Shown here: piece after piece, positions 8,207-24,324 of the stretch
Numbering within the stretch: the first letter of the stretch is position 1
Layout of the letters: each line of letters opens with the position of its first letter
Source of the DNA: Coprinellus micaceus
Taxonomy: Eukaryota; Basidiomycota; Agaricomycetes; Agaricales; Psathyrellaceae
Length of the DNA: 64,000 bases
Reading direction: 5' to 3'
Assembly (NCBI GenBank): GCA_951394405.1
Contig: OX596336.1
Coordinates: 930,001 to 994,000 of the forward strand
Notes under the pieces: model-generated
The model's input: only the letters and a program-made list of their open reading frames with translations
Told to the model about the DNA's origin: nothing
Database searches by the model: none
Made by a program: the position numbers and the translations under genes

Positions 8207-10095
8207 ATGGCTCTCAAAGTTCCCAAAGCCAACAACCTCCAGCTCTTCAAGGACGGCTATAAGCATCTGCAGGGTCTCGACGATGCCGTCCTCAGAAACA
8301 TCCAGGCAGTGAACGAATTGTCTGACACCGTTCGGACGAGTTTTGGTCCCAATGGCGCGTCACACACGTTTTCAATAGCGAAGGAGGGCGCTAAAAGAAT
8401 GATATAGGTCGTAACAAGCTTATCATTAACCATCTTGGCCGGTTATTTGTGACATCGGATGCTGCAACGATCATTCGGGAGCTGGAGGTCGTGCATCCGG
8501 CAGCCAAGCTCCTGGTAATGGGATCGCAGGCTCAGGAGGCCGAGGTACGTAGTCAGAAGTGCTCTATTGAATGCTACTTACGGTAATGTAGATGGGTGAT
8601 GCGACGAACATGGTCCTCATCTTCGCTGGTGAGCTTTTGAAGCGGGCAGAGCATCTGCTCATCATGGGTCTTCACCCAAGCGAGGTTATCAAGGGTTACG
8701 AGCTGGGATCGCAAAAGGCTCTCGAAGAGCTTGAAAGTGCGTGATTCACAGTGTACCATTTGGTAGCCCTCTGACACATCTCAGAGCTCTCAACCTTCAG
8801 CCTTCCAACGCAACTCACCCCTTCCTCCCTCGCCCTCGCTCTGAAGCCAGCAATTGCGTCAAAACAGTACGGATCAGAAGATTTCCTGGCTGATCTCGTC
8901 GCAGAAGCAGCCCTCGCTGTCATGCCCAGCAATCCCAAGAGCTTCAACGTCGACAATGTTCGAGTAGTGAAGATCATGGGTGGAAGTCTCGCCTCAAGCA
9001 AAGTCGTGCAGGGAATGGTGTTCGGTCGTGAGCCCGAAGGCACCGTGAAAAAGATCTTCCGTGGAAAAGTCGCCATCTTTACATGCGCCCTCGACATCGC
9101 ACAGACGGAGACCAAGGGTACTGTGCTCATCAAGAATGCTGACCAGATGCTCAACTTTTCGTCTGGTGAGGAGAAGCATATGGAGGCGATCTTCAAGGAG
9201 ATCGCGGACTCTGGCGTCAAGGTCATCGTCGCTGGCTCCACAGTTGGCGAGCTTGCCCTCCATTACCTCAACCGCCTCGGCATCGCAGTCCTCAAGGTCC
9301 TCTCCAAGTTCGATCTTCGCCGACTCTGCCGCGTCGTCTCCGCCACACCCCTAGCCCGCGTTGGTGCTCCTACGCCTGAAGAGGCCGGCTTCGTCGACGT
9401 TTTCGAGACAGTTGAAATTGGTGGTGATCGTGTCACGGTAGTCAGGCAGCTTGCTCCGGGAGATGAGGGTTATGACGCCAGCTCCCCAGGAGAAAAGACC
9501 AGAACTGCCACGATCGTTCTCCGCGGGGCTACCTCAAACCGCCTCGACGACCTCGAGCGTGCCATCGACGACGGCGTGAATGTCATCAAGTCCCTGATGA
9601 AGGATCCTCGACTCGTGCCCGGTGCAGGTGCCACGGAACTCGAGCTCGCCAAAAGGGTAGACGCCTATGGCCGGGGCTTGAAGGGGCTCTCACAACACAG
9701 CGTGAAGCTCTTTGGAACTGCACTGGAAGTCGTGCCTAGGACTCTTGCCGATAATGCTCTTGGTGGTGCCGAAGGCAATGAGGTTATGAGCAGGTTGTGG
9801 GCCAAACACGACGCCAAGGGCGGTGAAGCATGGGGCGTGGATGTTGAGGTGCGTCGCAGCCTTTTCAAATTCTGCACACCGAAATTAACTGCCTTCCATT
9901 CAGGCCGAGGCCGACGGAACTCTCGATGCTAACGCTCACAAGATCTATGATTCGATCGCCGCCAAAAAGTGGGCTATCAAGCTCGCAACCGAAGCCGCCG
10001 TCTCCGTGCTTAGCGTGGATAGCATTATCATGAGCAAGCCTGCTGGCGGACCCAAGGTTCCTCAGCAGGCCGGTAACTGGGACGCGGACGACTAG
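8207..10095 (+). CDS. CCT8: T-complex protein 1 subunit theta (CCT8)
   Basis: Five exons: 8207-8354, 8408-8544, 8592-8736, 8785-9848, 9904-10095, giving 561 aa, the normal length for CCT-theta (about 550). This is one of eight different subunits of the cytosolic TRiC/CCT ring, which folds actin, tubulin and other clients using ATP. Group II chaperonin landmarks are present in order: TSFGPNGRNKLIINHLG, TSDAATI, the nucleotide-loop motif (here GDATN), the apical-domain segment with VKIMGGS and ALDIAQTETKGTV, and the late block ATELELAKRV...ALEVVPRTLADNALG. Two oddities: the first intron must begin with GC, and the usual second Gly of the GDGT/N loop reads Ala. It directly follows two Hsp70-like genes on the same strand. 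Confidence 0.96.
8355..8407 (+). other. CCT8: GC-AG intron 1 of CCT8
   Basis: Joining G8354 to G8408 recreates the conserved FGPNGRNK block. The intron then reads GCGCGT at its 5' end and TATAG at its 3' end. Reading through hits an in-frame TAG at 8405, and no GT donor keeps the block intact. Confidence 0.75.
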
Positions 10096-18041: not shown

Positions 18042-18202
18042 CGTAACCCAGCTCCTGAGTCTCTACGTGAGATGTATGGGGGCTTTCGAAGCCAGATCGT
18101 GGTGGTGGTGGGTGTAACATCGAGGAGCTTCAAAACAATGGCGCCCAGCGAGGGGCTCCCACCGGAGCTTTCCGTTGAAACCAACAAGATCAAGGGCTAG
18201 CC

Positions 18203-18270
18203 ATCACTAGTTTATGGGGTCCCTCCCTATTGGGCATTATTTCCGGGCGGCCTGGGGTCTTCTCAATCAA
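18203..18270 (+). repeat. Left terminal inverted repeat
   Basis: It reads inward TCACTAGTTTATGGGGTCCC and continues through CCGGGCGGCCTGGGGTC to AATCAA. It matches the reverse complement of 23396-23460 over most of its length with a few indels. It ends 86 bp short of the transposase stop codon. Confidence 0.85.
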
Positions 18271-18355
18271 ACTGTCCATATGCGAAAAGTGCGCCAGGGC
18301 TGAATGCTCGCCGTCGTTGGGCGTCTAATGGTAATTCAGGCTACTCTACTGTAAT

Positions 18356-21300
18356 CTATTGACGAGCGCTAAGCTTTTTGACTGGAGATGGACGTCTTGG
18401 TGAGTTTGAGTCATGTGAGAGACTCGACATTGCCCGCTTTCGCCCAGGTGTTGCCGGATAAGAAAGGGGTACAGGAAACAATCCGTCGGCTCTCGCTGGT
18501 GTGCAGCTCTCAGCAGCATCGATCTGTTCCTCAATTTCCTCTGCTCCCTCGTCTGCTGGGTTTGCAGGAGATGTTCCGGGCATGCCAAATGTGCTCCTGT
18601 GGAGGCGTGTGAAGTCTTCCTGTATGCCCAGCAATTGCTCTTCTTGTTGGCTGATATATACTTGGTGGCGAAGTTCTGGTGGGATCGACACAATGGATCC
18701 GTCCTCGTTTTTGTGAAACTCATAGAGGTGGTGATAAAAATTGAATTTCCAGAATGTTGGGAGGTGTCCTCGCTCGTTCGGCGTGCAGAGGGTGCATAGA
18801 ATGGGCCGGTTGGTGGCAGGCGAGTTGCGGCTGTACACATTGGCCTTCTCGTAGTTCATCCCACTCCAGTGGTACTCGCAGTCTGAGTCGATATCATACT
18901 TCTTCTTCCCTCCTTTCCCATCTGTCACAGTCAACTGGGTCTTGCACCCACTGAGCCCACACCAGCCGCATGGATTGAACCCGACCTAGCGAGCACATGT
19001 TCATTAACCACATGATTGGGACGAAAATGGAAACTGCCGGTGGTGCGTACCTCGACGTATGACGATAGCGCAGGATCACGTACATTGCGATGGGCCTTCA
19101 GGACATGGAACGAGACATGATTGCGCATGTTTTGGATCGGAATGGAAGCCTTGGGACAGAGCTTACAGGGTAGCTTCGTGTTCGCCGGGTGTTTATTAAT
19201 GGAGGAAAGTAGTTGTGGGCTCGCGATCGAGAGGGTTTGCTCGAGGAACCGAAAGGGGAGACCAGAGGTCTCGCGGTCCACAATGGGAATCGACTTGATG
19301 CTCGCAAGGAACTCGTTACTGTCTGGCGATGTGTGCCCCCATGCTTCCTCCATCACCTCTTGCAATACCTTGTGCTTGAAGATCCATGTCGACTTTCCGT
19401 CTGGCATATTGAATGCCTTCGGCGAAATAGGGAAGAACCGATCGGCGGCGATGCGTGTTGCGAAGTTCTTCCTTGGCTGCAACCGTCCTCGCTCCACTGG
19501 TGCGATTTGCAGGAAATGTCCGGTCCATGTCCAGCACAGTTCATCGGCATCATCAAAACGCGATCGTAGCTCGAGGTACTGTACTGCGATCGTAATGGCT
19601 TTTTTGGCGTTGTGCAGATCATCGAATGGGACAGATGCGAGATTTGTCTTGGCGCTCCCTTGTCGAAAATTCAGCACCTGCGCAACACAGAGCGAGATCT
19701 CTTGTCCGGTGTGCGCCAGGACGACGCCGACATCAGAGACATTGATCGCATCATCCTCCTGAAGCCGAGCTGCCTCGTCGACCTCCGTTGCCTTCTTGCC
19801 GTCCTTCGTAATCCCTTGAACTCTCTGCGTCCGGCTAACACTTTTCCGTGCCCCAAGACTCAGCGAAGCAAGCCTCTGAGCAACAAGGGTGTGCTTTGAG
19901 TGCGAGACTCCATCCGCGGCTGTGATGCGAGAGCTCGGGTCATATGTGCCCGCTCCTAGACCATTGAGCGCCACAGGCTCCACCTCATCATCCCCACATT
20001 CTCCCTCATCCCCTATTTCCCCAGTGAGCGGCTCGTCGAATTCCGAGACATCAAGCCCATCCCCCAGCCCATCCCCATTTCCATCCCCAACTACCAGCCC
20101 GGCAAAAGGTAGCGCTGCATCTGCAACAGCCACAACCTCCTCCTCCTCAACATCCTTATCCGTATGCTTCACACCAATGTACTCTCCCTCTGGACGCAGG
20201 TGATCGTGGTTGGGCTTCGCAAAAAGTGCCTCAAAATCAAGGAACTCCCGAGCACCGTAGAACCGCATGATGAGAGCGTTCGCATCAGCCCTCCCCCCAA
20301 AATACTCCTGGTCGAGATCCAGAGTTGAGAGTCGGACATCTCCGATCCATGACGCAGGGTTGACATGATCTACCCCTTTTGCATTGCTCAGATTGAGTCT
20401 TTTGTGTCCAGGATCAAGGTTTGGGAGTCGTTCGTAGATGGCATTGATTTCGGCGCCTATGGCGAGCTTGTGGGTGAGCTGCAGTGTGTCGAAATTCCGA
20501 GCATGGTCATGGGTTCGCGCGCTCGAGAATACGCCTTCCAAGCGATCAGTTCCTTCGAATAGGATATAGTACCGCAGATTTTTGTCGATCAGCTGAAGGC
20601 GAGCCGCCGTAATGATGATGCTCTTCACGACTGCCTGCGAATCCGCATAAAGAGGCGTTGTGATAAAGTCCGATCCATGTTGGCGGTAGAGGAAGGTGAG
20701 AAGATGGGCATATGTTGAGAGGGACCGGACTTGCTGAGAGATTGTCATTGTAACATCGGTGAAGGGGCGCGTGAAGAAGCCAAATATCTGCGCTATAAAT
20801 CCGATGTCGTCGATTTTGCCTGTCAAGCCTGTAGACGAAAGCTCCTCGGGGTCCATAGCACGCGCTTGCGAGGGGAGTTGCATCAGCGACTCTATTAGGC
20901 TCACTGCAACAGGGACGTTCTGCTTGTCCATTGGGTTGAGCATTGCTTTGACGCGGTCTTCGGGGAGCTTCGCAACACGTACAAGCGCCTTGTAGATGAC
21001 GTCGGATGTGATCACAGATGTGTTCACTGTGATTCCTCGTGCACGGGATCGGAGCATTGTTGCAAATCGCTTGATGATATGCTTGGGGTCGCAGGTGCCT
21101 ACTATTCCACTAGAGCCCACTTGCATATTTATCCCAGTGAGCTTCGAGATCTCCTGGCCAAGACGTGACGCCCGATCAAGTGGGCGCTTATGGCAGAGAT
21201 TGTGGCGAAGCTGTCTGAAGGCCGCAGCTCCATCAGTGGCAATTGTCCATATTAGCCCGTGGCGCTGTTCCCCATTTTCGTCAGTGTGATAATCCTCAAG

Positions 21301-23238
21301 CAGCTCTCCAAGCCATGAGGCTGTCTGCACTCCTGTCTCTGTGTTGCAGGAAGGAGACACCACAATGGGGGACACTGAGTAGTGATCCGTTGCGGTGACC
21401 GGGGCGACACCAACCACTGTTGCCTGGGATGCGTGGTGAGCTCGGCCTTCTATTAGGGCCTTCTCGAGCTGATCCACATCCTCCATGGTATCCAGAGTTG
21501 TTTTCAGATCCGTGGTATGTTCGCGACAGAACCCTACCACCCGATTTTGATTGACGTCATAGCGTGATAACGCTTCGAGAGCAATGTCGTCCAGCATCAT
21601 GGATTGCCCAATAGCCTTTTGCACGTCAGACGGCTCAGCTCTCCCTCCAAGGACCGACTTCATGTTGGATTTATGGTCACCTGATGTGGGTCGGCCAGCT
21701 GATGCCAGTATTTCTGGAATTGGCTTTCTCCGCTCCAAGGTCGAGCGTGAAGCGTAGCCCTCGGCTCGAGACAAGGCATACAGAAGCTTCGGACCACCTA
21801 GTAGTCGTACAAGGTTCGCCGTATCCAGCTCCTCATCTGACCAGGACTCGCGTACCCTGAGATCCCCAGAAGCCGAACGCACGAGGTCCTCCAGAATAAG
21901 CTCATCCGACTGCTTGCGGCGTAGTGCACGTGCAAGGAGGCGCGAAACTGCGGGGATCTTGTTTTGTGACATATAGACAAGAATTTTGCGCCGCAGAGAT
22001 ATCTTGTGGAGGAGGCGCTGAACGCGTCTCTCACTGCGGCGCACCTAATAGATGTTTAGGATTATATTTAGTTCCACATCCAAGCGCGAACTCACCTTGA
22101 GACGCTCAATCTTTAAGTCACGAGTTAGCTTCTTGTTCAGCTGCTCCATTTGTGCCGGGTTAAGATATCGGTGGGGTGTGTGATCGGAAAGGCCGCCCTT
22201 CTCTGCTCTCTCCATTGTATCACGTAGCCGTGGGTCGTTGGCTAGCTTCCGACATTCCTTGCATGTTCTGCTCGCCTTCTCTCCCTCCTCTAATTTCACC
22301 TTACAATTCCTCGATTGGACTCTGATCCACTTCTCTCCATCGATCCCTCGCAGCGTCCACGGTAACGTCATATGGGTATGCTGCTGGAGGGCGTAGGTTG
22401 ACCATATTGATCCAGGCATCCACTCAACAACCTGTCCCACACACCCATCCTGCTCGCTCTCAGGTAAGTTTGATTGGGCCAGCCCAATGCCCTCGTCCTT
22501 GAAACACGGCAAATCCCCGGGGATAATTCCCGACGTCATTTCCTGAACTGCGCCTGGTGGCGGCCAATTGGGTGCTGGTGATGAGGGGGGCAGATCTGGT
22601 GCAGTCTGTCGCTGTGGTGAGTCCGCTCGTGCTTGTGGATTGCTTTCGATGCCATCCATGTTTCCGTGCATGGTGTCGAAAATGTGCTGATACTGGCCTG
22701 TGGGCGTTTGGCTTGGTGTAGGTAATCGACTCATAGGGTTTGGGTCGGAGGCGGTGTGCATAAAAAGCGAGCTAACCGTTGTAGGTGGCCCCGATGCGAT
22801 CGAGGAATGCAGCGAAGGTGATGCTGTTGCCGCATCAGGCACGGCGTCAACAAATATAGGATGGCACAGAAACTCACGCTGAGGTGGGTTCAAACGGTTG
22901 AGCTGCTCCACACGGATAGTGTTTGCTATCCTTGAAGCACGGTCCGTTTCCTCCCTCTGTTCTTGCGCCCGTATTTTCCTCTGCAACACGCCGCCGCACT
23001 TGCCATGGCCCCTGTGTTGATCAATCCCCGAGACGCCGCGAGACTGGCCGAGAAGAATAATGACCATTCCGCAGATGTCACACAGTACGTACTCCCTCTT
23101 GTCTGCCGGTATTTCGACGTCGTACACCTGGAATGTTATCCGTTTGTTGTCTTCGGGGACCACAAAGACAACCGTCGCATTAGCTACAAGCCGTAGGTCA
23201 GATGCCTTTGGTTTCCTTGGCTGTTTGGCTGTTGACAT
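18356..23238 (-). CDS. P-element/THAP9-like transposase with terminal zinc fingers
   Basis: Three exons on the minus strand, 23238-22096, 22044-19051 and 18985-18356, giving 1588 aa. A Cys/His cluster near the N-terminus (CDICG at 53-57, HRGHGKC at 75-81) could bind DNA. The centre fits the RNase H-like fold of P-element/THAP9 transposases: MLDDIALEAL (about 531-540) for the first acidic residue, IATDGAAAF (about 649-657), CDPKHIIKRF with Asp700 for the second, and TDRLEGVFSSAR with Glu884 for the third. A Gly/Asp/Asn-rich acidic stretch follows. The C-terminus has CKLCPK...HVSFH and, across the last splice, NPCGWCGLSGC plus further Cys/His pairs. It is probably the transposase of the surrounding element. 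The family call rests on motif order seen by eye; a domesticated gene is less likely given the flanking inverted repeats. Confidence 0.82.
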
Positions 23239-23395
23239 TTTCGGCTTGCGGGAAGGTAAGGTCGATGGAGGGGAAATAATCTTGTGGAATTCGTATTCTA
23301 CAGCATCTTCTATCTACTTTCGAAGCTTCTCTGCGTTAGGGAAGAGGCGGTCATATTTGAAGCTCGAGCAGCCCAGCCAATCGTTTTAGGAAGTA

Positions 23396-23460
23396 TTGAT
23401 GCAGGACCCCAGGACCCCGGGTATACGTCCAAAAACGGGGAGGACCTGGTAACTAGTGAT
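23396..23460 (-). repeat. Right terminal inverted repeat
   Basis: Read inward (minus strand) it begins ATCACTAGTTACCAGGTCCT and continues through CCCGGGGTCCTGGGGTCCTG to ATCAA. It lies 157 bp upstream of the transposase start codon, so it also overlaps the likely promoter. Confidence 0.85.
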
Positions 23461-24324
23461 TGCCGGCTTGCGGCCTAGTGGGATCCTCGGAAAACTCCGG
23501 TGGGAGCCCCTCGGCGCCCAGGGTTCGCCGCCTCGTGGGATCGTAGAGTGTGAGAACAATAAACCATTCCTGGGTTTATCCGAGCGGTCCGGCCCCTGGC
23601 CGGCGGGCCTTCAGTTTAAGCTCCGCGGGCGCTTAATTGCAACCTTCTCTTCACCATGTTGTACAGTACAAAGCGAATAGTAAAGCTGCCTCGAGGCAAC
23701 AATGCGTCTCCCCAATTCAGCCTTGCAATGGTCCGTAGCCAAGCCCCTCCTTATACCGCGTCTGGTGAGTATCACACCACTAGTCATTCCATTTATCGCC
23801 CTACCGCTTAGAAGCGTGTATACATACCTCGATATCACTTACAATGGAGCCTATACATATGCCCCTTTCTTTTTATCTACCATAGCTCAGAAGGTGGGCC
23901 AAGGCATCTGGAATTGGCAACTGTTTCAAAGCTCTCGGATAATGCCGTCGCAGACGCCCACAACCACCCACAGATATCAAATCGAAGTCTTCGACCCCTT
24001 GTCGTCAGGTAATAGGCCGGCCAAGTACTCTACACATCTGTCAATAATTCATATTAAGTATAGTTCTACAATAAGGCTGTATCCACATACGCAACAGCCA
24101 CGGCAGTCCCTTTGTGCTCGACTTGGTGCAGACTAATTGTTGGACTGGCTGAGCCACCGCTTCGGTTGGCATGCCAGCTCGGAAGAAGGGAGAACTTCTA
24201 GATACCGTAGAATAAATCGAATCCTATACGTATCTCGTTATCGCACAAACGGCCCCTCCCCTCCCCTCTCTACGCCCATTTCTGACCCCATATTTCGCTC
24301 CCCTCAAGCCTGCATCCCGCCAAG
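23461..24324. other. Intergenic region right of the transposon
   Basis: About 860 bases with no supported gene. An open frame at 23702-24136 has a composition unlike neighbouring proteins and no splice support. The last 100 bases, C/T-rich, precede the start of the HeLo-like/ULD gene. Confidence 0.4.

Follow-up and report, generated by a model that had tools for sequence, protein, structure and literature searches.

The closest described systems to the element treated here are the P element of Drosophila melanogaster (PDB 6p5a, 6pe2) and zebrafish Pdre2/THAP9. The catalytic triad of the Drosophila P transposase consists of D230, D303 and E531, and D339 is the aspartate of the [C/D](2)H motif (PMC8230255; PMC7776569), as that motif is defined in PMC8230255. 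The Drosophila enzyme contacts GTP through K385, K400, V401, S409, F443, D444, N447 and D528, and the GTP requirement of P elements is described as unique among transposases (PMC7776569); the D444C substitution kills Drosophila P activity (PMC8230255). Zebrafish THAP9 is said to keep the GTP-contact residues (PMC10983969). Outside animals, the P-type RNase H domain has been reported from P-like homologs in Amoebozoa and Chromalveolata, in an account whose relevant part names no fungal member (PMC3985635). We analysed a 64,000-nucleotide stretch of the basidiomycete Coprinellus micaceus (assembly GCA_951394405.1, contig OX596336.1, positions 930,001 to 994,000 of the forward strand; hereafter the window, with positions counted from its first letter), from a genome of 50.3 Mb in 17 contigs. 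It contains a 5365-bp element with one large transposase gene which, complete by sequence, is very probably a cut-and-paste DNA transposon of the P superfamily.

Results

The complete element occupies positions 18149..23513, without assigned strand, and was delimited by an inverted match, an exact 8-bp duplication and the identical ends of a second copy on contig C13. The initial annotation had placed its termini at 18203 and 23460, the outer edges of two inverted repeats of about 65 bp starting TCACTAGTT. These repeats are real (18203..18268, plus strand, and 23395..23460, minus strand; extents approximate, from alignment), but no duplication flanks them and we rejected them as element ends. 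They are instead the subterminal portion of an inverted region, imperfect in its match, that continues outward from TCACTAGTT as far as CGAGGGGCTCCCACCGGAG at 18149 on the left, with the complement of that sequence ending at 23513 on the right. There, the terminal inverted repeats (18149..18167, plus strand; 23495..23513, minus strand) match perfectly over the first 19 of 19 bases and in 25 of the first 26. When duplication lengths of 4 to 12 were tried in the flanks of these ends, 8 alone fitted, with GCGCCCAG present at both 18141..18148 and 23514..23521 (plus strand). The termini are 5'-C / 3'-G. Exact 16-mer inverted pairs spaced 2-10 kb apart number four in the whole window, which is the yield of one 19-bp repeat, so the terminal match is not a chance occurrence.

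A whole-element DNA search of the genome, in which copy counts are lower bounds, returned the window copy and one other, at C13:1356480-1357435. This second copy is 956 bp long and has lost its interior; the two pieces that align with the window element are 83% and 82% identical to it. Both ends of the copy fall on the bases where the window element begins and stops, and a separate duplication, GAGAAAAG, flanks it; thus the ends do recur elsewhere, which the initial annotation had made a point on which its proposal would stand or fall. One full-length copy, a nearest other copy at 82-83% identity and unique flanks are what might be expected of a domesticated transposase gene that is no longer mobile. 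We regard domestication as improbable, given the intact and matching termini, the exact duplication, the non-autonomous C13 copy with the same ends and the recent movement of a sister family.

That movement was observed among the relatives of the element. An exon-2 protein search of the genome gave 18 matches, and fifteen insertions were examined: the window copy, the 956-bp copy, ten protein-match places (L026 to L035) and three short copies located through the sister-family repeat. Nine of the fifteen have exact 8-bp duplications (GCGCCCAG, GAGAAAAG, GAAGGCAT, GCCTAAGG, ACGATACC, AAGCGTAC, GGAGAAGG, GGGAGGTT and GCATACAG), and in the C7 copy 6 of 8 bases are alike. The scan tolerated one mismatch, and pairs that looked like chance matches (one in L032, two in L034) were left uncounted; for the pair accepted in L032, the terminal bases are alike at just 17 of 30 positions. 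Two distant relatives are inserted in gypsy-type pol genes, and removal of the element with one duplication restores an open frame across the site, which fixes the duplication size at 8 bp, as in the P superfamily. On contig 5, two members of the sister family, whose protein is 47% identical to the window exon-2 protein, are inserted about 6 kb from each other in opposing orientations (L026 / L027). Because they differ at 1 of 5414 aligned bases and have different duplications, we conclude that the sister family transposed recently in this genome.

Elements of the hAT superfamily also produce 8-bp duplications and have termini of the YARNG type. The duplications among the window copy's relatives, and the CAAGGG ends of several of them that fit YARNG, would therefore suit a hAT element. 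We rejected hAT as highly improbable, since a Hermes-like fold was not the best structural match and the hAT Pfam domains were not found.

Several further features were seen at these loci. Three non-autonomous sister-family copies of 0.8-0.9 kb lie on C10, C13 and C1 (L051, L052 and L053); the second and third have exact 8-bp duplications, and the left end of the first is damaged. At positions 2058-8030 of L027 on contig 5 there is a distinct element with the 8-bp duplication GCCTCTAG and termini TAAGGGTC, about 560 bp long without its insert, which hosts a nested copy of the near-identical 5413-bp sister elements. Between the two inverted sister-element copies (L026 / L027) there is also a direct repeat, 100% identical over at least 1987 bp. 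Finally, the flanks of a distant relative on C1 (L032, 8665-9795 and 38-673) code for a tandem array of short, nearly identical units of the type 'SMDDLDEAIRLERE'.

The element carries a single minus-strand gene, 23238-18356, with two short GT-AG introns and a product of 1588 aa without a stop. Exon 1 (22096..23238) encodes aa 1-381, exon 2 (19051..22044) aa 382-1379 with the catalytic core, and exon 3 (18356..18985) aa 1380-1588 and the stop codon; all protein features below are likewise on the minus strand. The gene structure first proposed, three exons joining into 1588 unbroken residues, holds: the frame is open, the introns are GT...AG, and the protein alignment with the closest relative, P0001, covers both exon junctions.

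The core of the protein can be matched to Drosophila P residue by residue. In both a profile alignment and a MAFFT alignment of 42 proteins, D533 (codon 21589..21591) pairs with D230, the first catalytic Asp, D652 (21232..21234; context ATDGAAAF) with D303, the second, D700 and H703 (D700 codon, 21088..21090) with D339 and H342, and E884 (20536..20538) with the catalytic Glu E531. The five Drosophila positions are invariant among 14 animal, 13 clade-1 and 14 clade-2 proteins. The initial annotation had chosen E884 correctly and had wavered between D533 and D534 for the first Asp, of which D533, conserved in 63 of 64 sequences, is the candidate retained. Its choice of D700 as the second Asp of the DDE triad was rejected: that residue aligns with D339, while D652 aligns with the catalytic D303. 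Thus D533, D652 and E884 form the aligned triad, and they would be expected to perform the same chemistry. The D, K and H of the D700-x-x-H703 motif are invariant in 64 of 64 sequences, and the motif directly follows a strand at 315-318 (exon-2 numbering, predicted structure), as the [C/D](2)H definition specifies.

In a structure model of exon 2, the triad residues lie on strand 1, just past strand 4 and in helix 4, positions that fit an RNase H-like domain with its DDE residues in the P order. A mainly helical insertion domain (20587..21087, aa 701-867) is predicted between strand 5 and helix 4, and a helix-turn-helix region (21724..21852, aa 446-488) aligns with that of the P element. The closest solved structure to the predicted fold is the P transposase. 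Another group known in mushrooms is KDZ (Kyakuja-Dileera-Zisupton), whose Zisupton members yield 8-bp duplications. The host group and a large transposase bearing Cys/His modules would agree with a KDZ element, but neither the window protein, nor eight relatives, nor 34 family members have a Pfam match to the KDZ transposase domain, and the fold match goes to P. KDZ, which we rejected, is thus barely conceivable here.

Profile comparisons link the fungal proteins to animal P proteins. Of 123 animal-type P relatives gathered, 120 were listed and 24 of these were aligned as A4. Compared with A4, the fungal alignment A2 (20 sequences) gave a probability of 93.2 and an E of 2.9e-7 over 408 columns; A3 (7 sequences, including a distant paralog) gave 96.2 and 2.7e-9 over 410 columns; and A1 gave 93.4 and 2.4e-7 over 416 columns. 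As a control, trimmed A2 had a real score of 72.1, compared to 22.1 for the best of 30 column shuffles and 21.8 for the reversed alignment. Against Drosophila P alone, the aligned part was limited to the helix-turn-helix, at 42 columns with an E of 0.0018 and a probability of 14.8. The sole Pfam family found in the N-side exons of three distant paralogs was PF21787, the TNP-like RNase H N-terminal domain, with E values of 0.0097, 0.032 and 0.13, all of them short of the cut-off; five other proteins in the same scan had no match to it. A genome scan with PF21787 at E <= 1 found two places, each within exon-2 protein matches.

The proposed contrast with the THAP-headed animal proteins is upheld. 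Pfam returned no THAP match in the window protein at E <= 10, and the THAP spacing C-x(2,4)-C-x(35,53)-C-x2-H, for which Drosophila P has a match at residue 4, is absent from it. At the place that THAP holds in animal P proteins there is a C2HC finger, C53-x2-C56-x(18)-H75-...-C81 (22996..23082). The C-x2-C-x(18)-H-...-C pattern occurs in 25 of 34 rows, or 24 once P0022, in which it lies elsewhere, is left uncounted; the nine rows without it include some labelled partial. Pfam zf_C2HC_14 matches 7 of the 34 A5 members (best E 7.6e-4) and was not found in the window's own exon 1, for which the structure model is too weak to name a fold. A second module, C266...H287...C312...C326xxC329 (22252..22443), is conserved, position by position, in 31 to 33 of the 34 rows, with gaps in the remainder. 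Near the C terminus there are a CxxC...H...H module (19105..19167, aa 1341-1361) and, in exon 3, a PCGWCG...C...C...CxxC...H...H module (18713..18970). Cys/His modules near both ends of the protein, as first described, are therefore confirmed.

The acidic Gly/Asp-rich insert had been put forward as part of the same novel layout. It spans aa 1008-1081 (19945..20166), with 22 D/E, 14 G and 1 K/R among 74 residues, and coincides exactly with the longest low-confidence segment of the model. We rejected it as a distinguishing feature, since Drosophila P has an equivalent at the same place: its stretch 570-616, with 16 of 47 D/E, falls between the solved chains 1-569 and 617-751.

The GTP-contact residues of the insertion domain, which mark the THAP-headed group, are incompletely kept. 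Of 14 animal proteins, 13 have K or R at the K400 position, and S409, D444 and D528 do not vary among the 14. All 27 fungal proteins keep V401 and D528, but K400 is replaced by N in 13 of 13 clade-1 and by D in 14 of 14 clade-2 proteins, and the remaining contacts are retained at S409 in 1/27, D444 in 1/27, N447 in 0/27, K385 in 2/27 and F443 in 9/27. By sequence alignment, the window protein keeps four of the eight contacts (K385, V401, F443 and D528); at K400, S409, D444 and N447 it carries N, E, G and T, respectively. The K400, S409 and D528 columns are anchored by conserved neighbours, and the placement of K385, F443, D444 and N447 is uncertain; replacement is claimed for K400, S409, D444 and N447 alone.

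To place the family, we compared it with proteins of other organisms. Among the matches listed, the closest family member is a Coprinellus aureogranulatus protein (62% identity over 96% of the query region). The distant-paralog search found 570 proteins among 7995 scored; none of the 120 listed has a P-element Pfam label, and the organisms named among them are ones that we take to be mushrooms. In a FastTree tree of 478 core columns, with the root between animals and fungi assumed, the animal/fungal split has a local support of 1.00 and a branch length of 3.1; clade 1 has a support of 0.98, clade 2 of 0.84, and the pair of window and Coprinellus protein 0.999. We place the window element in a large clade of fungal P transposases that is distinct from the THAP-headed proteins of animals. 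Some listed clade-2 proteins are labelled PHD-type zinc finger at source, and single listed members (e.g., P0252, P0261) have unrelated Pfam domains, perhaps through fusion of gene models or domain capture.

Elsewhere in the window, an exon at 8922-9929 (plus strand) matches the TCP-1/cpn60 chaperonin (E 4.5e-78) and is a possible marker for host placement. No tRNA was found by ARAGORN (bacterial code), and no Rfam family at gathering score, in positions 1-64000.

Discussion

We file the element in the P superfamily, outside the THAP-headed animal group, on its fold, catalytic signature, ends and duplication. The assignment first made from the sequence thus stands, now with a predicted structure, profile comparisons with controls and 8-bp duplications behind it. 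Several results weigh against it. The window protein had no Pfam match even at E <= 10; PF21787 matched distant paralogs only, below the cut-off (E 0.0097 to 0.23), and none of the 34 A5 members at E <= 0.1; and a PDB profile search using A1 did not retrieve the P transposase. Five of the fifteen insertions (L031, L033, L034, L035 and L051) have no accepted duplication. The sole other copy found of the window family is 82-83% identical and internally deleted, and the assembly holds no empty site for the window copy, its flanks being unique. The initial annotation had called the element autonomous or recently active. The open frame, matching ends and exact duplication agree with this, but recent movement was seen for the sister family only; the window copy itself may be active at present.

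The N-terminal C2HC finger and the internal helix-turn-helix would bind the subterminal and terminal repeats, and the transposase would dimerise via a helical segment. The putative RNase H-like DDE site (D533, D652 and E884) would then cut both ends, and the 3'-OH ends would be joined across an 8-bp stagger to give the 8-bp duplication. The window element resembles Drosophila P in its predicted RNase H fold, in which an insertion, helical for the most part, separates strand 5 from helix 4, and in its aligned D230/D303/E531 and D339xxH residues, helix-turn-helix, acidic linker past the core, 8-bp duplication and 5'-C / 3'-G termini. It differs in that the protein is 1588 aa rather than 751 aa long, has no THAP but a C2HC finger and a second Cys/His module N-terminally and further Cys/His modules C-terminally, and does not keep K400, S409, D444 and N447. 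Zebrafish Pdre2/THAP9 is likewise described as having 8-bp duplications, a DDE site and an insertion domain, and its deleted derivatives as sharing its ends; unlike the window protein it is THAP-headed, and its GTP contacts are reported as conserved (PMC10983969). The Agaricomycete 'hypothetical proteins' of our searches belong to the same family as the window protein and to its sister clade, and are unlabelled there.

Since K400, S409, D444 and N447 are replaced, the contacts are reported as kept in THAP9, and D444C is inactive in Drosophila P, a testable reading is that the fungal branch may bind GTP differently or not at all. It is conceivable that mushrooms hold a large, so far unlabelled P branch in which the THAP head and the GTP pocket were both either absent from the start or lost later, and whose transposase is GTP-independent; we hold this tentatively, at somewhat less than an even chance. 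Alternatively, the element may still use GTP as Drosophila P does, in a pocket built partly of different residues. The equivalents of V401 and D528, kept in all 27 fungal proteins and in the window, favour continued GTP use, as do the K and F that the window protein has at K385 and F443 and the 5'-C / 3'-G ends, whose terminal base contacts GTP in Drosophila. The uniform change of K400 to N or D, the near or complete loss of S409, D444 and N447, and the loss of activity by D444C in Drosophila P (PMC8230255) argue against it. We give continued GTP use close to an even chance.

We found no basidiomycete P element in a literature search that did not include the two likeliest surveys, and do not claim that the element is unpublished; nor did the literature searched hold an outgroup of known biochemistry for the origin of the GTP requirement. 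A fungal branch that shares the core and the insertion domain and has other residues at K400, S409, D444 and N447 lends itself to a direct test. If the GTP-independent reading is true, the GTP cofactor would be either an addition of the animal lineage or a fungal loss, and the fungal enzyme would be a control revealing the role of GTP in P transposition. With matching ends, an open frame and deleted relatives, these are candidate elements for fungal gene-transfer tools. The analysis also identifies a widespread set of 'hypothetical proteins' of mushrooms as P-type transposases, which would alter transposon counts in Agaricomycetes.

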